DNA of 64,000 nt from Synechococcus sp. A18-25c. GTDB lineage: Bacteria > Cyanobacteriota > Cyanobacteriia > PCC-6307 > Cyanobiaceae. The notes beneath the pieces are model-generated. The model worked only from the letters and a program-made list of their open reading frames with translations. It made no database searches and had not been told where the DNA came from. Below, piece by piece: positions 4,642-64,000 of this stretch (positions are counted from its first letter, which is position 1; every line of letters begins with the position of its first letter). The DNA is taken from positions 2,108,001-2,172,000 of the forward strand of contig NZ_CP047957.1 in assembly GCF_014280035.1 (NCBI RefSeq), in the 5' to 3' direction. A program made the translations under genes and the position numbers.

Positions 4642-6216
4642 ATGCGCACCCTTTTCATCTATCCCCTGTTCCCGAAAACCTTCTGGAGCTACGAAAAAAT
4701 TCTGGAGCTGGTGAACCGCAAGGTTCTGCTTCCTCCTTTAGGTCTCGTCACTGTGGCGGCACTGCTTCCTCAGGAATGGGACATGAAGCTGGTCGACCGC
4801 AATGTCCGTGAGATCACCGAGGCCGAGTGGGATTGGGCGGAACTGGTGGTGATTTCCGGAATGATCGTTCAGAAGGACGACATGCAGGCGCAAATTGCTG
4901 AAGCCAAGCAGCGGGGCTTGCCGGTGGCCGTGGGTGGCCCTTACGCCAGTTCCACCCCTGATGCCCCTGAAATCGCCCAAGCCGACTTCAAAGTGCTGGA
5001 CGAAGGCGAGATCACTCTTCCTCAATTCGTCGAAGCCATCCAGCGTGGTGACACCAGTGGACGCTTCAGCGCCGAAGGTGACAAACCCGATGTCACCGCA
5101 ACCCCGATTCCACGCTTCGATTTGCTTGAACTGGATGCCTACGACTCAATGAGCGTGCAGTTTTCACGGGGCTGTCCTTTCAACTGCGAGTTCTGCGACA
5201 TCATCGTTCTCTACGGACGCAAGCCACGCACCAAACATCCCGAACAGCTGATCGCCGAGCTGCAGTACCTCCACGACCTGGGATGGAGACGCTCCATCTT
5301 TTTGGTGGACGACAACTTCATCGGCAACAAGCGCAACGCCAAGCTGCTGCTTCCGCAGATCAAAACCTGGCAAGAGGAGCGGGGTTACCCCTTCAGCTTC
5401 GCCACCGAGGCATCCGTCGACCTTGCTGACGACGATGAAATGATGCGGATGATGCACGAAGCACGCTTCGAAAGTGTGTTTCTTGGCATCGAAACACCGG
5501 ATGAAGCCAGCCTGGAAACCTCACGCAAAATTCAAAACACCCGCAACCCACTGGATGCGGCGGTCGACCGGATCACCGCCAACGGTATCCGTGTGATGGC
5601 TGGATTCATCATCGGTTTCGACGGTGAAAAAGAGGGCGCAGGCCGTCGCATCGTCGAGTTCGTCACACGCACTGGCATCCCCGCCGCGATGATGGGAATG
5701 CTGCAAGCGCTTCCCAATACAGCGCTTTGGCATCGTCTTGAGAAAGAGGGCCGACTGATTCAAGACAAGGACGCCGCCAAAGGCGTTAATCAGACCAACC
5801 TGTTGAACTTCAAGCCGACGCGACCGATCCGCGACATTGCCAACGAATACGTGGAGGCGTTCTGTGAGCTCTATGAACCCAATGCCTACATGGATCGGGT
5901 GTATTCCTACTATTTGAAAATGGGAGCCCCGCGTTGGAAAGGGAGCGCATCCCTACCCACCTGGACCGACATCCGAGCTCTCTCCATCGTGGTGTGGCGC
6001 CAGGGAATGAAACGCAGCACCCGCAGCCGCTTCTGGCGCTACATGCTGAGCATGGCCCGGCGCAACCCGGCCATGCTTGAGCAATTCCTGGTGGTGCTGG
6101 CTCACAACGAGCATTTCCTCGAGTACCGCGCGATCGTTCAGCAAGAAATCCGCGAACAACTGGAATCCCTTCCGCCTGAGGAGCCCAGCGCACCCAGGGA
6201 ATTGCAACCGGCCTGA
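4642..6216 (+). CDS. B12-binding domain radical SAM protein
   Basis: A 524-residue protein with an N-terminal B12-binding-like domain (about 1-140, Rossmann type, starting MRTLFIYPLFPKTFW, with GGPYASSTPD). A radical SAM core follows: C178-x3-C182-x2-C185 in RGCPFNCEFCD, then the family-typical FLVDDNFIGNK. The C-terminal helical part resembles DUF4070. Relatives include hopanoid and bacteriochlorophyll enzymes (HpnP/HpnJ, BchE), but the reaction cannot be assigned. The start at 4642 is preferred over an in-frame ATG at 4573, because homology-like sequence begins at MRTLFIYP and the upstream residues are low-quality. Confidence 0.85.
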   Translation: MRTLFIYPLFPKTFWSYEKILELVNRKVLLPPLGLVTVAALLPQEWDMKLVDRNVREITEAEWDWAELVVISGMIVQKDDMQAQIAEAKQRGLPVAVGGPYASSTPDAPEIAQADFKVLDEGEITLPQFVEAIQRGDTSGRFSAEGDKPDVTATPIPRFDLLELDAYDSMSVQFSRGCPFNCEFCDIIVLYGRKPRTKHPEQLIAELQYLHDLGWRRSIFLVDDNFIGNKRNAKLLLPQIKTWQEERGYPFSFATEASVDLADDDEMMRMMHEARFESVFLGIETPDEASLETSRKIQNTRNPLDAAVDRITANGIRVMAGFIIGFDGEKEGAGRRIVEFVTRTGIPAAMMGMLQALPNTALWHRLEKEGRLIQDKDAAKGVNQTNLLNFKPTRPIRDIANEYVEAFCELYEPNAYMDRVYSYYLKMGAPRWKGSASLPTWTDIRALSIVVWRQGMKRSTRSRFWRYMLSMARRNPAMLEQFLVVLAHNEHFLEYRAIVQQEIREQLESLPPEEPSAPRELQPA

Positions 6217-6224
6217 GTTTCGCC

Positions 6225-6599
6225 TCAGTCCTGCACGTAGGGTTTGCCGTTGTTCAGGCAACCCTCGGCCTTCTGCAGCTCTCGCCCCAGATAAAGGGCA
6301 TGGTCAAGGCGACTGAGGGGATGGGGCCCATCACCTTCGGTGAGAGCAATCCCGAGCTCCTTGGCCGTGCGGCCGCGAAAGCTGCGGCTGGCTTGTCTCG
6401 GGCCACCACCGCGGCAGGCCAGCACTTCACCAGTCTCCGGATCTGTCGCTCGACCTTTGTCGTCCACATCATTGCTGTAATGCTCGACCACCAGTTCAGC
6501 GGCATCAGCATCCACCTTGATCAGGAAATAACCGCAGGGATCGAGGTCGATAAAGCGTTGCGACAGCTGGTCGTCAAGCGATGAAGGGACGGTTTTCAT
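6225..6599 (-). CDS. DUF4346-like conserved protein
   Basis: A soluble 124-residue protein without signal peptide or membrane helix. The segment DPCGYFLIKVDADAAELVVEHYSND looks like the DUF4346 domain, known in cyanobacteria alone or fused to pterin-binding-like domains. The end contains LSRLDHALYLGRELQKAE and LNNGKPYVQD, the latter reminiscent of thiolase or ligase tails. Function is unknown. It converges on the radical SAM gene with an 8-base gap and lies 24 bases downstream of the FemAB-like gene on the same strand, so the two may share a transcript. Confidence 0.6.
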   Translation of the reverse strand: MKTVPSSLDDQLSQRFIDLDPCGYFLIKVDADAAELVVEHYSNDVDDKGRATDPETGEVLACRGGGPRQASRSFRGRTAKELGIALTEGDGPHPLSRLDHALYLGRELQKAEGCLNNGKPYVQD

Positions 6600-54591: not shown

Positions 54592-54620
54592 CGAGCGAGA
54601 CGAGTGAACCCCTCCATCAA

Positions 54621-54650
54621 AAAGCAGGCCATCACTGACCTGCTTTTTTT
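54621..54650. terminator. Bidirectional intrinsic terminator
   Basis: AAAAAGCAGG ... CCTGCTTTTTTT forms a stem with a run of T in the plus direction after the RRM gene, and a run of five T in the minus direction after the small membrane protein gene that ends at 54671. It can serve both convergent genes. Confidence 0.88.
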
Positions 54651-54670: not shown

Positions 54671-54850
54671 TCAAGGAAGCAAGGCGGCGATTCCGATCAC
54701 ACCAACAAAAATCCCAAGAAACAGAAAACCCATTTTGGTCATCTTGGATTCATGGTCATCGACACCTTCCTCGACTGCCTCTTGCAGGTCGGCGCGAAAC
54801 TCATCAATGGCTTTCGACTTTTCGGCATCGCTGGGGATCTGACGAGGCAT
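54671..54850 (-). CDS. Small tail-anchored membrane protein with HES motif
   Basis: A 59-residue protein: a charged N-terminal half (about 1-38, DAEKSKAIDEFRADLQEAVEEG) and a single C-terminal membrane helix (about 40-58, GFLFLGIFVGVIGIAALL), i.e. tail-anchored. The juxtamembrane R-x13-HES-K-x2-K (HES at 33-35) recurs in the neighbouring cyclic-nucleotide-binding protein at identical spacing. Function unknown. The ATG at 54850 (MPRQIPSD) follows usual length; an in-frame start at 54871 adds seven residues. It is 33 bases downstream of the CNB gene, so both probably form one transcript ended by the bidirectional terminator. Confidence 0.6.
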   Translation of the reverse strand: MPRQIPSDAEKSKAIDEFRADLQEAVEEGVDDHESKMTKMGFLFLGIFVGVIGIAALLP

Positions 54851-54883
54851 CGTTTCGCTGACAAGGGACAAATGGTGAGCCGA

Positions 54884-55402
54884 CTAGGCGCGATGGAAGA
54901 ACCAGTAAGACGCGCCAGCTAAGAGCACCAGCAGAATAATCGGCACGGCGATGGCAGCCATACCGTTGTGGCTTTTCACCACGCGAGATTCATGGGCCAC
55001 GACGGCATCACGAATGCTGACGTGCATCTCCTCGCGAAGACGTTCGAGGTCAGAATCCAGAGAAGCATCGTCATACAGCGCCTTTAGGTGCTCGAACGTT
55101 GATTTCCCAAGCATCAAGCTTTTCTCTGGCTTGACGTAGAGAATTTCCATGAGCTCCTCTCTGGGAATCTCGATGAGCTGACAGGCTTTGGCAGCGCGGG
55201 CGCTGGCGATTCGAGGACGGCTATCAATAATTTCAACTTCTCCGAACACATGCCCGGGGCCATGGGTTGAATCGACGCCTTCGCCCGTCTCGGGATATTG
55301 CGTTGTCATCTCAATCATGCCCGCTTTCACGAGATAGATGGCACTGCTGGCATCTTCCGAGTGGTAGATGTAGTCGCCTTTATCGACAGCGAACTTGCGC
55401 AT
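54884..55402 (-). CDS. Cyclic-nucleotide-binding domain protein with C-terminal membrane anchor
   Basis: A 172-residue protein: a cNMP-binding beta-roll (about 1-100) beginning MRKFAVDKGDYIYHSEDASS and containing VKAGMIEMTT and GPGHVFGEVEIIDSRPRIASARA, the phosphate-binding cassette (FGE followed by R near xRxAS). An amphipathic linker (about 110-145) has LREEMHVSIRDAVVAHESR and precedes a single helix (about 147-169, AIAVPIILLVLLAGASYWFF) and FHRA tail. No helix-turn-helix is present, so it is not a Crp/Fnr transcription factor; it could bind cAMP at a membrane. The ATG at 55402 is chosen over a longer, poorly conserved frame. Confidence 0.8.
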   Translation of the reverse strand: MRKFAVDKGDYIYHSEDASSAIYLVKAGMIEMTTQYPETGEGVDSTHGPGHVFGEVEIIDSRPRIASARAAKACQLIEIPREELMEILYVKPEKSLMLGKSTFEHLKALYDDASLDSDLERLREEMHVSIRDAVVAHESRVVKSHNGMAAIAVPIILLVLLAGASYWFFHRA

Positions 55403-55479: not shown

Positions 55480-56382
55480 ATGGCGAGCCAGCCCAACAAT
55501 CGCCACGCACTCCGAAAAGGTCTCATCATTGCTGGGGTTGTCGCTGCTGGTGCCATCGGCTGGAGCGTTCTCAAGCCAAAGCCCAGCCCTCCTCCGGTTG
55601 TCAGCCAACCCAAAGAAGTCACAGCGCTCGGCCGTCTGACACCTGAGGGAAGCCTTGTTCCTCTTTCCATTCCGGCAGGAACCGCTGGTGGGAATGAGAT
55701 CGTTAAGCGTTGGTTTGTCGGCGAGGGCGACACGATCACCAAGGGGCAAGTGCTCGTCAGACTCAGCAGTTACGACGAATTGCAATCGGCACTGGCACAA
55801 GCTGAATCCAAATTGAAGTCGACAGGTGCGCTGTTGCCCTTTTTGAAGGTCAGCCAAAACCGCGGCAAAGAACTTTTCCAGGACGGTGCCATTTCTGAGG
55901 AAGAACTGGCCAAAACCACCGCCAGCATCCTGGAACGGCAAGCTGACGTCGCTGCCGCTAAGGCGTCCGTCGAGCAGGCCCGTAGCCAATTGTCGTCAGC
56001 GGAGGTTCGCTCTCCGCTCGACGGTCAGCTGATCAGGATCTACAGCTGGCCAGGAATGAAGCAGACCGATGAAGGATTAGCAGTCATCGGCCGCACCAAT
56101 TCGATGCAAGTTTGGGCGCAGGTTTTTCAGACCGACGTCAATCGATTGCGCATTGGCCAATTAGCAACCGTCAAAGCCGAAACCGGAGGTTTTGAAGGTG
56201 AAGTGCAGGCCACGCTGAAATCGATTATCGGCAAAGTATCCCAGAGAGACTTATTTGCAGTAGCAGCCAACAACGATGTCAATGCTCGCGTCATTCTTGT
56301 GAAACTTGACATCGCCCCTGAATACCAACAGCAGCTGTCCAATCTGAGCGGCTTGAACGTCATCGTTCGCTTCAAGCCATGA
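55480..56382 (+). CDS. DevB-type ABC exporter membrane fusion protein
   Basis: A 300-residue periplasmic adaptor (HlyD family). N-terminal membrane segment LIIAGVVAAGAIGWSVL, a lipoyl-like half (LVPLSIPAGTAGGNEIVKRWFV, GDTITKGQVLVRLSSYDELQ), a helical hairpin (SALAQAESKLKS ... AKASVEQARSQLSSAEVRSPLDGQLIR) and beta-barrel. It resembles DevB of heterocyst glycolipid export, which links DevCA to the TolC-like HgdD. This organism does not make heterocysts, so the substrate is different and unknown. Start ATG at 55480, divergent from the CNB protein gene; its stop overlaps devC by 4 bases. Confidence 0.88.
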   Translation: MASQPNNRHALRKGLIIAGVVAAGAIGWSVLKPKPSPPPVVSQPKEVTALGRLTPEGSLVPLSIPAGTAGGNEIVKRWFVGEGDTITKGQVLVRLSSYDELQSALAQAESKLKSTGALLPFLKVSQNRGKELFQDGAISEEELAKTTASILERQADVAAAKASVEQARSQLSSAEVRSPLDGQLIRIYSWPGMKQTDEGLAVIGRTNSMQVWAQVFQTDVNRLRIGQLATVKAETGGFEGEVQATLKSIIGKVSQRDLFAVAANNDVNARVILVKLDIAPEYQQQLSNLSGLNVIVRFKP

Positions 56383-57578
56383 GCCAAATCACATCTTGGT
56401 TTCAGAGGTTAAATCTCAACGACCTACCTCTAGCTTGGCTGCAACTCAAACGACAACCAGTGCGCTACTTGGTTGCCGTCACGGGAATCGGATTTGCCGC
56501 TTTGTTGATGTACATGCAGCTTGGCTTTCAATCCGGCCTTCTGAAAAGCGCCACCAAGTTCTACAACGCACTTGAAACAGATCTCGTGCTGATTAGCCCT
56601 GCGACAGTGAATAGCGGCAGTTTTCAGCAGTTTCCTCAATCACAGCTTTTTCAAGCACTGGGCATCGAAGGCATTCGCGAAACCATTCCGCTTTATATCG
56701 CCAACATCAATGCACAACAACTCGACGGGATCAAGCCAACATCCCTTCGGATGATTGGATACGACCCTGATCTCCAGGTTCTGAATGTCCAAGCCATTAA
56801 TGACCAAAGCGGCAAACTGAAGACTCCTGGTTTTGTTCTGTTCGACACCCTTGGATCAAGGATTAAGACAGGTCCAGTTGGGAAAACTTTTGAAGCTGAC
56901 GGGCCTCTCGACATGATCTCATCAGACTTTGAAAAGACGTTCAGAATCAAAGGCTTATTCTCACTTGGCTCAACCTTCGTCGCCGACAGCAATCTGATTG
57001 GCAGCGAAGCAACAGCGCTACAGCTTGCATCAAGACAAATCAATCTTGGCGAAATTTCCCTAGGTCTGATTCGAGTCGACAAACCCACTGATGTTCCGAG
57101 AGTTCAGGCCGATCTTCGCGCGCTCTACGGCGATGAAATCCAAGTTTTGACGAAGCCGCAGCTTATTAAGCAAGAAAGAGACTACTGGAACAATGTTTCA
57201 TCTTTCGGCGTCATCTTTGGTTTCGGAACTATTATGGGTTTACTGGTAGGGGGTGTCGTTGTTTACCAGGTTCTCTACACCGATGTCAGCGACCACCTCA
57301 AGGAATACGCAACCTTGAAGGCGATGGGCTTTTCAAGCCAATTCATCCTCATCGTGGTGATTCAAGAAGCCATTCTCTTGGGCGTGTCAGCATTCATCCC
57401 TGCGACCATTGTGAGTGCAGCTCTTTACGCAGGTTTGAGTGCTGTGTCAGGCATTGAACTGCAAATGACGCCTGACAAATCTCTACTGGTTGGCGCTTTA
57501 ACCATCAGCACCTGCGCCATTGCCTCTGCAATCGCGATCCGCAAGCTCAGTGATGCCGACCCCGCATCCGTCTTCTAA
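56379..57578 (+). CDS. DevC-type ABC exporter permease
   Basis: A 399-residue permease with FtsX/MacB-like topology: an N-terminal helix (LVAVTGIGFAALLMYMQLGF), a large extracytoplasmic domain (about 65-270) and three C-terminal helices (GVIFGFGTIMGLLVGGVVVY, ILIVVIQEAILLGVSAF, LLVGALTISTCAIASAIAIR). The DHLKEYATLKAMGFSS stretch is the FtsX-type coupling segment. It works with DevA and DevB as one exporter. Overlaps devB (4 bases) and precedes devA by 24 bases. The gene is visibly more AT-rich than the window average. Confidence 0.9.
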   Translation: MSQITSWFQRLNLNDLPLAWLQLKRQPVRYLVAVTGIGFAALLMYMQLGFQSGLLKSATKFYNALETDLVLISPATVNSGSFQQFPQSQLFQALGIEGIRETIPLYIANINAQQLDGIKPTSLRMIGYDPDLQVLNVQAINDQSGKLKTPGFVLFDTLGSRIKTGPVGKTFEADGPLDMISSDFEKTFRIKGLFSLGSTFVADSNLIGSEATALQLASRQINLGEISLGLIRVDKPTDVPRVQADLRALYGDEIQVLTKPQLIKQERDYWNNVSSFGVIFGFGTIMGLLVGGVVVYQVLYTDVSDHLKEYATLKAMGFSSQFILIVVIQEAILLGVSAFIPATIVSAALYAGLSAVSGIELQMTPDKSLLVGALTISTCAIASAIAIRKLSDADPASVF

Positions 57579-57602
57579 CGCCACATGCACGACGACATCA
57601 CG

Positions 57603-58304
57603 ATGAAACCCGTCATCAGCACTCAAAATCTCTGCCACAGCTATGGGAAAGGCGAGCTGAGAACAGAAATTCTGCACAACTTAAATTTTGATGTTTACAG
57701 CGGTGAAATCACACTGCTTGTGGGGCCCTCAGGCAGTGGGAAGAGCACGCTTTTGACGCTGCTTGGAGCCTTGCGATCCGTCGAAGAAGGGTCCATTCAG
57801 GTTCTCAACCAAGAATTGAACGGAGCCAGTGAAGACGTGCTAATGCAGACGCGACGTCGCATTGGTTTTATTTTTCAAAGCCACAACCTCGTCTCGTCAC
57901 TGACGGTTCTGCAGAATGTGCAAATTCTGCTTCAGCTCACTGAAGCTAATCCGCAGAAACGTCGTGATAAAGCTTGTGAATTACTCGAAGCCGTCGGACT
58001 CAGCCATCGACTCAATCACTACCCAGAAGAGCTCTCCGGTGGTCAGCGTCAACGCGTTGCGATTGCACGGGCTTTAGCACCAGAGCCTGATCTCATCTTG
58101 GCTGATGAGCCAACAGCATCCTTGGACAGTCAGTCTGGTCAGGACGTGGTTGAACTGCTCGGCAAACTTGCACGCGATCGAGGCAGTGCTGTGCTTCTCG
58201 TCACCCACGATCTGCGTCTTCTGAAAGATGCTGATCGTATCTGGGCCATCGAAGACGGCCGCATCAATCCTTGGGATGAATCCAAAAACAGCTCAGCCCA
58301 CTAA
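57603..58304 (+). CDS. DevA-type ABC exporter ATPase
   Basis: A 233-residue ATPase: Walker A LLVGPSGSGKSTLLTLLGAL, Q-loop IGFIFQSHNLVSSLTVLQNV, signature LSGGQRQRVAIARALA, Walker B LILADEPTASLD and switch H (VTHDLR). This set is the LolD/MacB/DevA subgroup. ATG at 57603 (MKPVISTQNL) is preferred; 57585 (MHDDIT) is also in frame. It completes the devBCA-like exporter and is followed by the hydrolase gene after 11 bases, suggesting one operon of five genes with the MFS. Confidence 0.93.
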   Translation: MKPVISTQNLCHSYGKGELRTEILHNLNFDVYSGEITLLVGPSGSGKSTLLTLLGALRSVEEGSIQVLNQELNGASEDVLMQTRRRIGFIFQSHNLVSSLTVLQNVQILLQLTEANPQKRRDKACELLEAVGLSHRLNHYPEELSGGQRQRVAIARALAPEPDLILADEPTASLDSQSGQDVVELLGKLARDRGSAVLLVTHDLRLLKDADRIWAIEDGRINPWDESKNSSAH

Positions 58305-58315
58305 CACAAGATCTC

Positions 58316-59296
58316 ATGCCAGCTCAGGACACAACATCCCATTCAGCAGCATCCATTTATCCTCAAGAGTGGCTGGATGAGTGGAACTGGGGCGATCACA
58401 GGATCAGCTTCGTCAGAACGTCAAACACCACCAATGCCCAAACCGCTGTGCTGATCCATGGCTTTGGGGCTTGCAAGGAGCACTGGCGCCACAACGTCTC
58501 AGCACTGACAGAGCAGTTCAATGTGGCAGCGGTCGATCTTCTGGGATTTGGGTCAAGCGATAAGCCTCAATCCCGACTTGCATCCGAGCCGGAAGTTGAC
58601 GGCAGCACGCTCTATTGCATCGATTTATGGGCTCAGCAGGTGGTGAGCTTTCTCGACGCTTACAAACTTCAAAACGTGCAGCTTGTCGGCAACTCCATCG
58701 GTGGCGTCGTCGCACTGCGTGCAGCTGAAATGCTTGAGACCCGATCCACACCCGCAGAAGGTGTCGTTCTGATCGACTGCGCTCAACGCGCCATTGACGA
58801 CAAACGTGTGGCAGAACAACCGCCATTCCGTGCACTGGGCAGACCGTTGCTCAAACAACTGGTGAGACAACGCTGGATCACCGGTCCCTTGTTTCGCAGC
58901 CTCGCGCGACCATCCATCATCCGCAAAGTTTTGGAACTGGCTTATCCCACCGGAGCAGGCGTCGATGACCAACTGGTGTCCGTTCTCCATCGGGCAACCA
59001 CAGATTCGGGAGCGCTGGAATCATTCCGAGGCTTTATCAACTTGTTCCAGGATCACCTTGCACCTGAGCTTCTTGAGAGGCTCACAACGCCTGTGCGTGT
59101 GATCTGGGGAGAAGCTGATCCCTGGGAGCCGGTGGAACAGGCCCAACGATGGACGGCTTTTGAGAGTGTCTATGAACTGAAAACAGTCCCATGCCTGGGC
59201 CACTGCCCCCATGACGAAGCCCCTGACCAGATCAACCCGATCCTGATCAATATGCTCTGCACCGCAATCAGCAACACCACAGGAGAACCCGAATGA
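58316..59296 (+). CDS. Alpha/beta-fold hydrolase
   Basis: A 326-residue serine hydrolase: oxyanion-hole loop LIHGFGACKEHW, nucleophile elbow LVGNSIGGVVALRA, acid VIWGEADPWEP and histidine CLGHCPHDEAPDQ, all in order. The family includes lipases, esterases, C-C hydrolases and haloalkane dehalogenases; the substrate cannot be told. No signal peptide is visible, so it is cytosolic. It is downstream of devBCA and overlaps the MFS gene by 4 bases; it might tailor the exported compound. Confidence 0.88.
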   Translation: MPAQDTTSHSAASIYPQEWLDEWNWGDHRISFVRTSNTTNAQTAVLIHGFGACKEHWRHNVSALTEQFNVAAVDLLGFGSSDKPQSRLASEPEVDGSTLYCIDLWAQQVVSFLDAYKLQNVQLVGNSIGGVVALRAAEMLETRSTPAEGVVLIDCAQRAIDDKRVAEQPPFRALGRPLLKQLVRQRWITGPLFRSLARPSIIRKVLELAYPTGAGVDDQLVSVLHRATTDSGALESFRGFINLFQDHLAPELLERLTTPVRVIWGEADPWEPVEQAQRWTAFESVYELKTVPCLGHCPHDEAPDQINPILINMLCTAISNTTGEPE

Positions 59297-60495
59297 ACAA
59301 GCGTGTCTTGATCATTCTCTGCTTGGTGGTGGCCGTCGACTCCGCCAGCTTTGGCTTGCTTCTCCCTGTTGTTCCGTTCTTTGTGGATCAGCTGACGGGA
59401 TCCTTCAATGCAATCGCCGTCACCAGTGTGACAGCAACCTATTCCGGGCTTCAGTTTCTAGGTGCCCCCGTGATCGGCCGGCTCTCAGATCGCTGGGGTC
59501 GTCGTGGAATCCTCACCGTCGCAGTCGGCATTAGTGCCCTTGCACTGATTGGCCAGGGGCTCTCCACTTCACTCACGATGTTGCTGCTGTTTTCAGCTCT
59601 GAACGGTGCCTCATCAGGCGTCTTTGCGGTTTCACAAGCAATGGTGGCCGACGCCGTTGAAGACCGAGACCAACGAACGGTGGGGTTCGGAGCCATCGGG
59701 GCTGCACTTGGGCTGGGATTCATCATTGGACCAGGGCTGGGAGGTGCTCTCGGGGCATTGAATCCGCGCTATCCGTTTGTGGTGGCGGCAGCCTTCTGCA
59801 TCATCAACGTGATCCTGATCCGCCTCCACCTTCCAGAATCACGTCAACGCAAATCTCCAACGGAGCTTGATCAACAGCGCCAACCCAACCCTCTGCTGAC
59901 GAGCGGATCGGGCCGCCTGCGCAAACTGATCTCCATCTATTTCCTCTTCTATCTCGGCTTCAGCGCATTCTCGGGAATTTTCGTGCTCGCAGCAAAGGAT
60001 CGCTTCAACTGGGGACCCCAACCCACGTCCCTAGTTTTGGTGTATGTCGGAGTCGTGGCTGTGATCGTTCAGGGAGCGCTGCTCCCTCGTCTGCTGAAGC
60101 GATTGCGACCTGATCGTCTGTCCATGATCGGCCTCACGCTGGTTGCCATCGCGATGTTTGGCGTTTCAGTGATCAAACAAGGCAGCAGTCTTTACATCAC
60201 ACAACTCCTGTTTGCTGGTGGTGTCGGTCTCAGCACACCTGGGCTTCGCTCGTCGATGTCGCTGTGCGTTTCAGAAGATCAACAGGGTGTGCTTGGTGGG
60301 CTCTCCCAATCCGTGGTCAGCCTGACATCCCTCGTGGGACCTCTGCTCGCCGGACAGTTGTTCGAACGTGCTGGCTACAGCGCGACGTTTCAAGTTCAGG
60401 CTTACCTGGTGATTGGAGCCATTGCACTACTCATCTCGATGCCGAGGATCCCTTCACAAACTCACCCTCAAGAGGTGAAAACACCCTCGGCATAG
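59293..60495 (+). CDS. MFS transporter (TetA/multidrug-like, 12 TM)
   Basis: A 400-residue MFS protein. The start MNKRVLIILCLVVAVDSASFGLLLPVVPFF, motif A (GRLSDRWGRRGIL) and FIIGPGLGGALGAL (motif C-like, GxxxGPxxGG) mark a proton-driven antiporter of the DHA family (tetracycline/multidrug). It is coupled to the hydrolase gene by a 4-base overlap and is the last gene of the plus-strand run. Its last 28 bases overlap the convergent VOC gene. Together with devBCA it gives two different exporters in one operon. Confidence 0.88.
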   Translation: MNKRVLIILCLVVAVDSASFGLLLPVVPFFVDQLTGSFNAIAVTSVTATYSGLQFLGAPVIGRLSDRWGRRGILTVAVGISALALIGQGLSTSLTMLLLFSALNGASSGVFAVSQAMVADAVEDRDQRTVGFGAIGAALGLGFIIGPGLGGALGALNPRYPFVVAAAFCIINVILIRLHLPESRQRKSPTELDQQRQPNPLLTSGSGRLRKLISIYFLFYLGFSAFSGIFVLAAKDRFNWGPQPTSLVLVYVGVVAVIVQGALLPRLLKRLRPDRLSMIGLTLVAIAMFGVSVIKQGSSLYITQLLFAGGVGLSTPGLRSSMSLCVSEDQQGVLGGLSQSVVSLTSLVGPLLAGQLFERAGYSATFQVQAYLVIGAIALLISMPRIPSQTHPQEVKTPSA

Positions 60496-60884
60496 CCAAT
60501 CAATTCAATTTGATGCCCATCGGGATCTGAAATGAACAGGGCGCGACAACGAGGTCCATAATCAAACCCCGTCACTGCAAGACCTCGCTCTTCCAGTGAT
60601 TGTTGAACCTTGGCCATCGATTCATAAGTCACGCGAAAGGCGACATGGCGCATGGCAACAGTGCTGTGATCCGGAACAGACTTCATCGGAACGGAATCAG
60701 AGGGAAACAAGTTCAAATAATTCCCTTCTGCCACACGAAGGAGGTAAGGAGGGCCTTGCTTAAGACCTTCCATCGATGCGGGCTTGAAACCAAGAATGTC
60801 CTGGTACCACTGCATCGAACGATCAGGATCACTGACCGTAAGCGCAACATGGTCGAGAGCTTCAATTGGAAGACGTTTGGTCAT
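60468..60884 (-). CDS. VOC/glyoxalase-like protein
   Basis: A 138-residue vicinal-oxygen-chelate protein with two beta-alpha-beta-beta-beta halves: ALDHVALTVSDPDRSMQWYQDILGF (metal H in LDHVAL), VAMRHVAFRV (H) and FISDPDGHQIELIGY (E). These are the standard VOC metal ligands of glyoxalase I, fosfomycin-resistance and ring-cleavage dioxygenases; the role is unknown. It lies 43 bases downstream of the Rieske gene on the same strand, a context suggesting work on an aromatic or oxidised compound. Confidence 0.85.
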   Translation of the reverse strand: MTKRLPIEALDHVALTVSDPDRSMQWYQDILGFKPASMEGLKQGPPYLLRVAEGNYLNLFPSDSVPMKSVPDHSTVAMRHVAFRVTYESMAKVQQSLEERGLAVTGFDYGPRCRALFISDPDGHQIELIGYAEGVFTS

Positions 60885-60927
60885 TGATTCGTGTTCGTTG
60901 ATAGATCAGAAACCTGCAGAATTAAAA

Positions 60928-61977
60928 TCAGATCAGCAGACCATCGTTACGCTTTTGGCGAAGCATGCGACGAAGAGCCAAGGTCGATACATCACTGGCC
61001 ACCAAGAGATCCCCATGACCATCAAGATCAGGCATGGCTGGAGTCAGCGTTTCAACAGTGCGTTGATCTTCAGCCATGAACCGATCCACACGTCCTCGAG
61101 CATTGCCATCGGCAAGTGGGCTGCGGAGGAAAGAACGGAAGTGACGCCATAAATTTCGCGTGGTGCCATCACCCATGGGCACATGGGCGGTCATCAACGA
61201 AATCTGAAAATCACCAAAGACCACCCGAACCAAGGACACATTGGCCAACCAGAGCTGGATGTGCTGTTCACCAGCATCATCGGACTCCTGATCAACGCCC
61301 TTCTCATCCGCCTGGTTGAACCAGGCACGCAGACCACGCCCTTGGTCGGCACGGTAGTGACGATCGCGAGGTGCAATCACACGCTCGTAGACGCTGTCAT
61401 CGCGACACCATTGATCCACTGGCATCAACTGATCAGGGGCCATCGCCCCGAAACTGCCGCTGTGAACAAATGGTGCATGGGTTAGATCCATGAATGCTTC
61501 CAGCACCCGCAACCAATGGGCTTGCCAGACGACGGTTCCTTCTAGAGAGCGCCAGCCACTGTCATCTGATTCTGGAATGGGGCCAACACCAGGCAAAGCT
61601 GGCAAGTCATCAGCCGCAGATTGCCCTGTGGGATCCCACCAGATCCAGATGTATCCATACTGCTCACGACAGGGCAACCCACCCAGTGTTGCGCGACGCG
61701 GAATTGGATTGTCATCGCCCTGAGCGGGAATTTTGGCGCAATCCCCATCTGACTGGAAGCACCAACCGTGATAGGGGCATGACAGACCCTGTTCACCGAC
61801 ATTGCCCGCACTCAGGCTGGCTCCCTTGTGGGGACAGCGATCTGGAACAATCGAGACTTTGCCATCGAGGGATCTCCAGATCGCAAAAACCTCGCCATGG
61901 AAATGGAGTTTCTGGACGCTGCCTTCGGAGACTGCCGAAGAGAGCTCAACGGCATACCAAGCACGGATCAGCTGCAT
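60928..61977 (-). CDS. Rieske-type ring-hydroxylating oxygenase (PAO/TIC55-like)
   Basis: A 349-residue oxygenase. The N-terminal Rieske domain holds C-x-H in DRCPHKGASLSAGN and C-x2-H in LSCPYHGWCFQSDG for the 2Fe-2S cluster. The catalytic domain has AFMDLTHAPFVHSGSFG, giving the D-x2-H-x4-H mononuclear-iron motif. The layout is that of the plant-type pheophorbide oxygenase/choline-monooxygenase-like group (PAO, CAO, TIC55). Substrate unknown: chlorophyll derivatives, pterins, aromatics and others are possible. Soluble, no obvious membrane anchor at the C-terminus. It follows a small unknown gene by 15 bases. Confidence 0.88.
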   Translation of the reverse strand: MQLIRAWYAVELSSAVSEGSVQKLHFHGEVFAIWRSLDGKVSIVPDRCPHKGASLSAGNVGEQGLSCPYHGWCFQSDGDCAKIPAQGDDNPIPRRATLGGLPCREQYGYIWIWWDPTGQSAADDLPALPGVGPIPESDDSGWRSLEGTVVWQAHWLRVLEAFMDLTHAPFVHSGSFGAMAPDQLMPVDQWCRDDSVYERVIAPRDRHYRADQGRGLRAWFNQADEKGVDQESDDAGEQHIQLWLANVSLVRVVFGDFQISLMTAHVPMGDGTTRNLWRHFRSFLRSPLADGNARGRVDRFMAEDQRTVETLTPAMPDLDGHGDLLVASDVSTLALRRMLRQKRNDGLLI

Positions 61978-61992
61978 GAAAACGTTGATGGA

Positions 61993-62271
61993 TCAGGGAC
62001 CGAGATGCGTCTTCCAGAGGTCTGCGTCCTGAGACTGCATAAACCAACGACGCTCACGCAAGGCGCAGAGAAGTTCGGAAGCAGATTCGCTCTCTAAGTC
62101 GAAGCCCCAATCACTGTCAAGGCAAGTACGCAACCCATCGGTGCTGAGGCCCCGACGAAGACCTTTCTTCAGCAGGCGTCGGAGCGGAGCAGGCTCGAGC
62201 TCCACCATCAGCGCCATGGTGAGAGGCGTCCGTGGAAGGGCATCGTAATCCAGTTGATCCACAGTGATCAA
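61993..62271 (-). CDS. Unknown 92-residue protein
   Basis: A soluble, helical, acidic protein without a recognised family: EPAPLRRLLKKGLRRGLSTDGL in the middle and CALRERRWFMQSQDADLW near the end; one Cys pair. Starts ATG at 62271, overlapping the ParA-like stop by 4 bases, and ends 15 bases before the Rieske gene. This tight coupling suggests it serves one of those two proteins. Confidence 0.6.
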   Translation of the reverse strand: MITVDQLDYDALPRTPLTMALMVELEPAPLRRLLKKGLRRGLSTDGLRTCLDSDWGFDLESESASELLCALRERRWFMQSQDADLWKTHLGP

Positions 62272-63035
62272 TCGCCGGGAGACTCGAGTAGAACGGTCGC
62301 CAGGTCACGGACAGCATCAGTCCAGGCGTGGTTGGGAAACTCAAGAACAGCCAAACCGCCACTTGCCAACGTCAGAAGATCCTCACTGAGAGGAAGAATT
62401 GACCCGATGGAAACCTCATAACTTTCCTGCATCCGCAGACGCACCTCATCACGACTGAATTGACTGGGGAGTTTGTTCATCACAAGTTGAATATTCATCA
62501 CATCAAGACGCTGAGCCACCTCAATCGCAACCGCGGTTCCCAAATAATCCTGACTGTCTGGACGCATCACCATGATCAAATGATCAGCAATAGCTGCAGA
62601 AAGCAGAGTTTCTTCATTAATCCCTGGGTGAGTATCAACAAGGACAAAATCAAGCTTTAAGTCATCAGCAATAGAGAACATTGCGTCATTCAGCTTTTCA
62701 ACCTGATAGCCCTCGCGCAGAAGACGAGCAATTCGATCACTGTCAAGAGAAGCAGGCAAAAGGAAGATGCGACCCCTTGCTGACTTCACAGGGTCAGGTG
62801 TCACCTCATGCACACAATCACGGATTTGCACATCTTCCTGCAGATAATCGTTCAGACATCGATCACCCTCAGAGAGAGAAAAATCAAACAGAACATGAAT
62901 CCCAGGGGATGCCAGATCAGTATCTAAGATGGCAACGCGCTTGCCTTGAAGGGCCAACGCAGTTGAAAGGTTGGCCGTCAGGTTTGATTTACCAGTACCG
63001 CCTCGGAACGAATGAATTGCAATGATCTGCGTCAT
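62268..63035 (-). CDS. ParA/MinD-like ATPase
   Basis: A 255-residue P-loop ATPase with the deviant Walker A FRGGTGKSNLTANLS (MinD/ParA lysine pattern altered to RGGTGKS), ILDTDLASPGIHVLF and FVLVDTHPGINEETLLSA. The pattern fits the subgroup sometimes associated with type VI-like, TolC or exopolysaccharide loci rather than chromosome partition. It may position or energise the export apparatus. ATG at 63035 (MTQIIAI); two residues longer is possible. It is downstream of the TolC-like gene and overlaps the small unknown gene. Confidence 0.85.
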   Translation of the reverse strand: MTQIIAIHSFRGGTGKSNLTANLSTALALQGKRVAILDTDLASPGIHVLFDFSLSEGDRCLNDYLQEDVQIRDCVHEVTPDPVKSARGRIFLLPASLDSDRIARLLREGYQVEKLNDAMFSIADDLKLDFVLVDTHPGINEETLLSAAIADHLIMVMRPDSQDYLGTAVAIEVAQRLDVMNIQLVMNKLPSQFSRDEVRLRMQESYEVSIGSILPLSEDLLTLASGGLAVLEFPNHAWTDAVRDLATVLLESPGD

Positions 63036-63135
63036 GATCAATTCGCCCTGAGGACGAAATGGGGTGTGAGTCGGGCTTCAGATTACCTCGATATCAGCCC
63101 AGGAACCGTTTTGAACCTGGGTCTTAAAATTAGAT

Positions 63136-64000
63136 TCAGTCGTCAGAGTCAGACTGGGCCCTCTGCAGCACGGAACTCAAACCAACTGCAGCGAGTGGAT
63201 CACCAACCTGGGCGAGCAAGTCTGGGTCGTTTTGGTAGGACAAGCCACTAGCACGGGCCAGATTGACCAAGGCAAGGTTGTAATCAGCCAATTGCTCGAT
63301 GTAGGAACTCACAGCTTCCGTGAGATCTTGCTGAGATTGAACAACATCTGTAATCGTGCCGTAACCAGCATTGAACCTCTGGGACTGCAACTTGAGAGCC
63401 GACGAAGCGGCTTGCACTCGCCCTGAGGCGACAAGAACGGCCTCGCGACCATCCGTGGACTGCGCAAAGTATTCGCGGACTTCCTCAATCACGGAATTGA
63501 TCGACTGACGAGCCGCTAACTGTGCAGCAGCAGCCCGCTTTCTCGCCGCCGCTGCATCCATCCGAGCACGGCCACCATCAAAGCCAGTCAATGTAATCTG
63601 CAACACAGATTCTGAGTTCCAAAGATCACTACGGCCTGTATCAACGATGTATGGTTCACCGCTATTTGGATAGCCAAGATTCTTCGTCCAATACAAGGAA
63701 TTCACAAGCTCAATCGTTGGCCTGTAAATTGCAAGATCAATCTCCGCTTGCAACTCATTCTGCTTCACACGAGAGAGATTTTTGACAATGACCTGCCGAT
63801 ATTCGAGTGCAGAGTCAATGGTTTCTTGCAATGAGGAAGCCCACGATCCCAAAGGACTCAACGCTTCACTGGGCTGAATCTCCATGGAACGTGGATCATT
63901 CAGAAGTTGAGCCAACTCCGCTTGCGCAACTAACGAATCACGCTTTGCGTTGACAAGGTTGACCTCGTCTGTGCGGAGCACAGTGATCTGTTTGGCGACA
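63136..64000 (-). CDS. TolC-family outer membrane efflux protein (C-terminal part)
   Basis: The frame is open to the right edge, so the N-terminal part with the signal peptide lies outside. The 287 visible residues are mostly long amphipathic helices, with YRQVIVKNLSRVKQNELQAEID, LQITLTGFDGGRARMDAAAARKRA and FNAGYGTITDVVQSQQDLTEAVSSY. The last is the typical TolC/OEP repeat-end motif. TolC-like proteins form the outer membrane duct for tripartite exporters; the DevB-type adaptor in this window is a plausible partner (inference). The next gene (ParA-like) follows after about 100 bases on the same strand. Confidence 0.9.
   Translation of the reverse strand, partial: VAKQITVLRTDEVNLVNAKRDSLVAQAELAQLLNDPRSMEIQPSEALSPLGSWASSLQETIDSALEYRQVIVKNLSRVKQNELQAEIDLAIYRPTIELVNSLYWTKNLGYPNSGEPYIVDTGRSDLWNSESVLQITLTGFDGGRARMDAAAARKRAAAAQLAARQSINSVIEEVREYFAQSTDGREAVLVASGRVQAASSALKLQSQRFNAGYGTITDVVQSQQDLTEAVSSYIEQLADYNLALVNLARASGLSYQNDPDLLAQVGDPLAAVGLSSVLQRAQSDSDD

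Follow-up and report, generated by a model that had tools for sequence, protein, structure and literature searches.

Many cyanobacteria make cAMP and cGMP, and the known receptors for these second messengers are mostly transcription factors. In cyclic nucleotide-binding (CNB) domains generally, the phosphate-binding cassette contributes a Glu and an Arg, and the Arg is usually followed by Ser, Thr or Ala. Proteins that pair CNB domains with export are represented in cyanobacteria by the bacteriocin-type transport-associated proteins of TIGR03896, which carry two CNB domains and are encoded beside export genes. The DevBCA exporter of Anabaena works with TolC in the export of heterocyst glycolipids, and AcrZ provides an example of a small membrane protein that regulates a pump. 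In PMC3516471, Synechocystis slr0593 bears the name "cAMP binding membrane protein".

We analyzed a stretch of 64,000 nucleotides from Synechococcus sp. A18-25c (NZ_CP047957.1), hereafter the window, in which a CNB protein with a C-terminal membrane anchor is encoded next to a 59-residue membrane protein. The CNB protein has the roll fold and the FGE...R pocket (E55 and R64) of CRP/FNR proteins, PKA and PKG regulatory domains and CNG channels. Unlike these, it ends in a stalk followed by a single membrane helix, and in a Pfam search PF00027 was its sole credible match, with no helix-turn-helix, kinase or channel domain found. It shares the CNB fold with the TIGR03896 proteins, whereas it has one CNB domain plus a membrane anchor and scores 25.3 bits against that model, below the cut-off of 161.05. 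The window also encodes a DevBCA exporter whose devA, devB and devC products all pass their NCBIfam cut-offs; it is a second copy in picocyanobacteria. In outline the small protein recalls AcrZ, being a single short helix with, in some lineages, pump genes nearby; it differs in that its stalk recurs in a sensor protein. For slr0593, the name alone suggests a protein of a kind similar to the window CNB protein. We found no description of this pair in the literature searched, whose coverage left most subscription journals and preprints outside. The CNB fold is well known, and the comparison suggests that what is new is the pairing of a membrane-anchored cNMP-type receptor with a dedicated stalk partner that lacks the sensor.

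A conserved stalk common to both proteins

The CNB gene (54884..55402, minus strand, 172 residues) lies upstream of the small gene (54671..54850, minus strand), from which 33 nt separate it. The CNB protein matches PF00027 at 59.9 bits (cut-off 27.5, E 2.4e-16). AlphaFold2 predicts this roll up to about residue 111, followed by one continuous helix (residues 112-171) that includes R123, H137-E138 and the C-terminal hydrophobic segment (mean pLDDT 80.1, with pLDDT of 59-74 in the stalk blocks; pTM 0.57). The roll (residues 1-111) aligns to MtbCRP 3i54 with a Z score of 15.9 and 2.6 Å over 103 residues, and it also matches other CNB proteins. The small protein has a short polar N-terminus, an amphipathic helix with R19 and H33-E34, and a C-terminal hydrophobic helix; it is predicted as a single helix spanning residues 8-57 (mean pLDDT 91.7).

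The preliminary description had reported the motif R-x13-HES-[KR]-x2-K in both neighbours, ahead of a single C-terminal helix. In its literal form the motif indeed occurs once per protein, at residues 19-39 of the small protein (54734..54796, minus strand, counting codons from 54850) and residues 123-143 of the CNB protein (54974..55036, minus strand, counting from 55402), and each protein has one strong hydrophobic segment, which is C-terminal (best 19-residue stretches at 40-58 and 147-165, respectively). We then aligned relatives of both proteins, beginning with 25 small and 26 CNB members and ending, after distant cyanobacteria had been added, with selections of 33 small and 21 CNB rows; the shorter CNB proteins of four genomes (L197-L200), which are without the HE stalk, were excluded. 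R, H, E and M show no variation among the 33 small proteins, every one of which has R-x13-HE. In the 21 CNB proteins the H, the E and a later V are invariant, and the Arg is present in 20, with Gln in the remaining one. The lasting core is therefore R-x13-HE-x2-[MV], a form missing from the preliminary description. The original spelling was too narrow, because its third letter, S, and its final K vary in relatives; the strict HES-[KR]-x2-K version is, judged from these alignments, lineage-specific.

The resemblance between the two stalks exceeds chance at the level of the window pair, since 42 of 20,000 shuffled versions of the small stalk reach at least the same score, and it becomes stronger when the families are compared. 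Profile against profile, the best placement puts R19 on R123 with a score of 18.0, the next-best placement reaching 2.1. No column shuffle out of 20,000 attains the family-profile score, and only one does so after R, H and E have been removed. The two families also align by hhalign over 52 columns (93.3%, E 2.6e-7). The alignment needs a gap after the stalk, because the CNB membrane helix begins about 7 residues further from HE than its counterpart in the small protein. Run against six-frame translations of 388 genomes, the small-family model gave five matches at E<=0.01 outside the small proteins themselves. Each of the five is a CNB-family stalk, the one in genome G508 being a fragment at a contig end. 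Mean hydrophobicity along the two stalks correlates at 0.77. In each stalk the motif His nearly coincides in direction with the hydrophobic moment (offsets of 6 and -11 degrees) and so marks the centre of the face that is more hydrophobic, although the moment of the CNB stalk by itself is not significant (p 0.24). On its own, such sequence similarity is compatible with common descent or with convergence and does not separate them.

Searches with the small protein of the window against Pfam, NCBIfam, PADLOC and PHROGs returned nothing at the cut-offs used; PADLOC gave a weak CNB-type match only, for the CNB protein. All 33 small members lacked a credible match to a library model. A DUF896 match in 2 of the 33 (best 3.8e-6) was judged to be chance, and the viral contigs scanned yielded no relative of the small family. 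The small proteins share the stalk region of the CNB protein and lack its PF00027 effector domain, as a microprotein would, with the stalk as the putative interaction domain.

The pocket residues E55 and R64 are invariant in the 21 aligned CNB rows. The residue after the invariant Arg is Ser or Thr in 14 of these, and Ile in the window protein. Class III cyclases (PF00211) gave no separation at E<=1e-10, occurring in 28 of 30 genomes with both genes and 28 of 35 without; the other two pair-positive genomes had no class III cyclase at this cut-off. The cAMP/cGMP step is the weakest of our proposal because of the Ile after the key Arg and because of these two genomes. We therefore refer to cNMP binding by the window CNB protein as putative.

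Co-occurrence and arrangement of the two genes

We scanned 388 Cyanobacteriia genomes (completeness of at least 90% requested), accepting CNB-family members at E<1e-50 and small-family members at E<1e-15. Matches to the CNB model above 1e-50, like those to the small model from 1e-15 to 0.01, were not counted, being regarded as members of other families or as cross-matches, and weak matches up to E 1 were counted as noise in one of the scans. Both genes were found in 30 genomes and neither in 356, so that the family totals are 30 for CNB and 31 for small proteins, with 30 in common. The remaining two genomes are a small-only case (G543), in which the gene is at the edge of its contig, so that a convergent neighbour would be missing from the assembly, and G508, in which the CNB fragment at the contig end is accompanied by no small gene. 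The 30 pair-positive genomes span eight family labels (f1, f7, f11, f12, f15, f24, f26 and f35). Fisher's test gives p 1.7e-42 with relatedness ignored, a value that overstates the evidence because the genomes are related.

The two genes are same-strand neighbours in 9 of the 30 genomes and convergent neighbours in 8. In the other 13 they are non-adjacent: 6 genomes have them at distances of 3-33 kb, and 7 have them far from each other or on different contigs. The unlinked and convergent cases indicate that the co-occurrence is more than operon transport. The preliminary description proposed one transcription unit with a shared terminator. A terminator-like hairpin (~54619..54648; 13-bp stem, z = -3.0) lies 3' of the small gene, between it and a convergent RNA-binding-protein gene; it is missing from the list of one other scan. 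Same-strand adjacency, found in Cyanobiaceae, is absent in most other lineages.

Among 300 Cyanobiaceae, 27 have the CNB gene and the same 27 have an intact small gene; all 26 positives recur between the CNB and small scans, whose samples we take as one draw. Of the 27 CNB proteins, 26 are full-length and one, that of G314, is truncated by the end of its contig. The small gene falls within the fetched 3.5 kb at 24 of these 26 full-length loci; at the other two, those of G116 and G106, the distance is 3-6 kb. A match of the small model in G031 (E 1e-3, in a 289-residue frame) was taken as chance. One genome without a CNB gene (G019) retains a decayed small gene (L013:1501-1647) with four stops and the motif His changed to Tyr; it is flanked by genes that we take to be phytoene synthase-like and desaturase-like.

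A scan of 84,980 species returned 39 CNB loci, 33 with the full-length type, of which 32 are cyanobacterial by title and one comes from a MAG titled "bacterium TMED88". Of the other six, one is a tail fragment in a Vulcanococcus MAG, and five, which come from other phyla, are CNB matches that are both weak and partial. The TMED88 locus (L176) is picocyanobacterium-like at 74% identity and is probably cyanobacterial DNA in the bin. The pair is present in Synechococcus WH7803 (L144). The preliminary description's view of an undescribed membrane pair with a common stalk gains from these results, in that both families conserve the stalk, their profiles match, and their co-occurrence is near-perfect over eight family labels. 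The outcome that it named as refuting, homologues of each protein without the motif, did not arise. Its observation is confirmed overall, and its interpretation partly supported.

Copy number varies at a few loci. One genome (G556, L094:4766-5637) carries the small gene in two identical copies 0.7 kb apart, and in L190 and L191 (~4800-6280) two tandem HE-stalk CNB paralogues adjoin an alpha/beta hydrolase gene, with the small gene far off.

An exporter link within Cyanobiaceae

The link to an exporter was absent from the preliminary description. In the window, devB (55480..56382, plus strand; TIGR02971, 152.5 bits, cut-off 129) is divergent from the CNB gene across a 77-nt gap and is followed by devC (56379..57578, plus strand; TIGR01185, 313.4 bits, cut-off 290.35) and devA (57585..58304, plus strand; TIGR02982, 301.8 bits, cut-off 295.8). 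This second-copy DevBCA follows the pair among the Cyanobiaceae tested, being present in 10/10 pair-positive and 0/27 pair-negative genomes. A devC at least 67% identical to that of the window occurs in all 10 of the former, whereas the latter have only a devC paralogue of at most 40%, and DevB parallels DevC (at most 34% in the same 27). This link does not extend to all lineages, since none of the nine pair-positive genomes tested from outside Cyanobiaceae yielded a window-type devC (best 37-42%). The exporter and the pair are thus one cassette within Cyanobiaceae, and elsewhere the pair is linked to other DevBCA copies or to none.

The neighbourhoods, in whose comparison some family labels of named loci are guesses, vary accordingly. 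The CNB gene of Cyanobiaceae is usually divergent from devB, and at some Cyanobium-type loci the two are ~5 kb apart with Rieske and MFS genes between them. In Nodosilinea-type genomes (L162-L166) the two genes converge, and devBCA comes next, in divergent orientation to the small gene. The small gene lies immediately 5' of devBCA at four f24 loci (L087-L090), and at L184 and L185 it is again first before devBCA, with the CNB gene ~10 kb or more off. Two Rieske genes intervene before devBCA in three f15 genomes, and at the fetched f7, f11, f26 and f35 loci devBCA was found near neither gene. In a DevB tree, all linked DevB proteins fall on one side of a branch that cuts off 27 of the 28 unlinked rows, the exception (L233) being long-branched; given the long branches in this tree, we do not claim a single origin of the linkage.

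Genes for a Rieske/VanA_C oxygenase, an MFS carrier, an alpha/beta hydrolase and a ParA-like ATPase recur near the pair in distant cyanobacteria, and all are present at 58316-63041 of the window. According to the neighbourhood comparison, the hydrolase (58316..59296, plus strand) is a recurrent neighbour of the CNB gene and the MFS transporter (59293..60495, plus strand) is likewise recurrent, while the Rieske/VanA_C oxygenase (60928..61977, minus strand), which recurs beside the small gene in other lineages, belongs to the window's cassette weakly. These four genes may constitute a pathway for an exported hydrophobic compound. Hydrolase homologues at E<=1e-30 number three in each of the 5 pair-positive genomes of the window's genus and two in each of its 19 pair-negative genomes; this link is weaker than that of devC because the three other pair-positive Cyanobiaceae tested have only two homologues. 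A TolC-family outer-membrane efflux protein (PF02321) encoded near the ParA-like gene (63136-63981, minus strand) is a possible outer partner for DevBCA. At f24- and f12-type CNB loci (L168-L169, L172, L175 and L185) a ParA-like gene and, beside it, a gene for a weakly MarR-like protein of ~100 residues stand divergent to the CNB gene.

A candidate mechanism and its alternatives

We consider it an even bet (probability roughly 0.5) that the two proteins assemble in the membrane into a heteromer, packed via the common stalk, and act there on a client, in many cases the DevBCA exporter; the contact, the ligand and the client are the parts that we infer. The CNB protein would place a cytoplasmic cNMP-type roll on a long helix that runs unbroken into the C-terminal membrane helix, with its N-terminus presumably in the cytoplasm. 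The small protein would supply the same stalk and membrane helix without a sensor, and the two stalks would pack side by side and in register, through the face centred on the invariant His. In such an assembly, the helix leaving the roll would carry the signal into the membrane, where the small protein contributes a stalk and helix to match. Once ligand is bound, the heteromer would pack differently and thereby gate the client, for which the second-copy DevBCA encoded next door would be the best candidate in Cyanobiaceae. More tentatively, and with the odds somewhat against it, the small protein might be a dedicated membrane microprotein that caps or completes a cNMP receptor in the membrane and couples the second messenger to a DevBCA-type exporter.

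The same gene arrangements could be read differently if each protein docked by the common stalk on one third membrane partner, such as the DevC permease, without contacting the other. That the genes are often non-adjacent, that the small gene can head devBCA with the CNB gene far away, and that DevC co-occurs with the pair in Cyanobiaceae would all be accommodated by such docking. We nevertheless regard it as rather doubtful, as there are four family labels whose loci have DevBCA near neither gene and we found no other partner that follows the pair everywhere. Still less probable, in our estimate, is that the small protein, as a CNB-less relative of the stalk, turns the CNB receptor down by forming non-productive heterodimers. 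An antagonist of this type would be expected to possess the stalk and helix without the sensor and to co-occur strictly with its target, and the duplicated small gene of G556 would fit dosage control. However, lasting co-retention and co-loss fit an obligate partner too, and the position of the small gene 5' of devBCA in the f24 loci suggests that it has a role of its own.

We consider it quite improbable that the likeness is fortuitous or generic, reflecting nothing more specific than amphipathic juxtamembrane helices encoded by two genes of one mobile cassette. The patchy distribution is in line with a mobile cassette, as is the observation that devBCA travels too in Cyanobiaceae, together with a hydrolase copy within the window's genus. 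Against this stand the survival of the profile match without its R, H and E, the persistence of co-occurrence where the genes are unlinked, and the finding that genome-wide scans with the small-family model return no outside matches other than CNB stalks below E 0.01.

If the small protein is indeed a membrane microprotein that caps or completes the receptor, two-chain, stalk-matched control would represent a new layout for cNMP signalling. A co-inherited pair consisting of a sensor and a sensor-less partner with a common stalk would provide cyanobacteria with a non-transcriptional outlet for the cAMP/cGMP signal.
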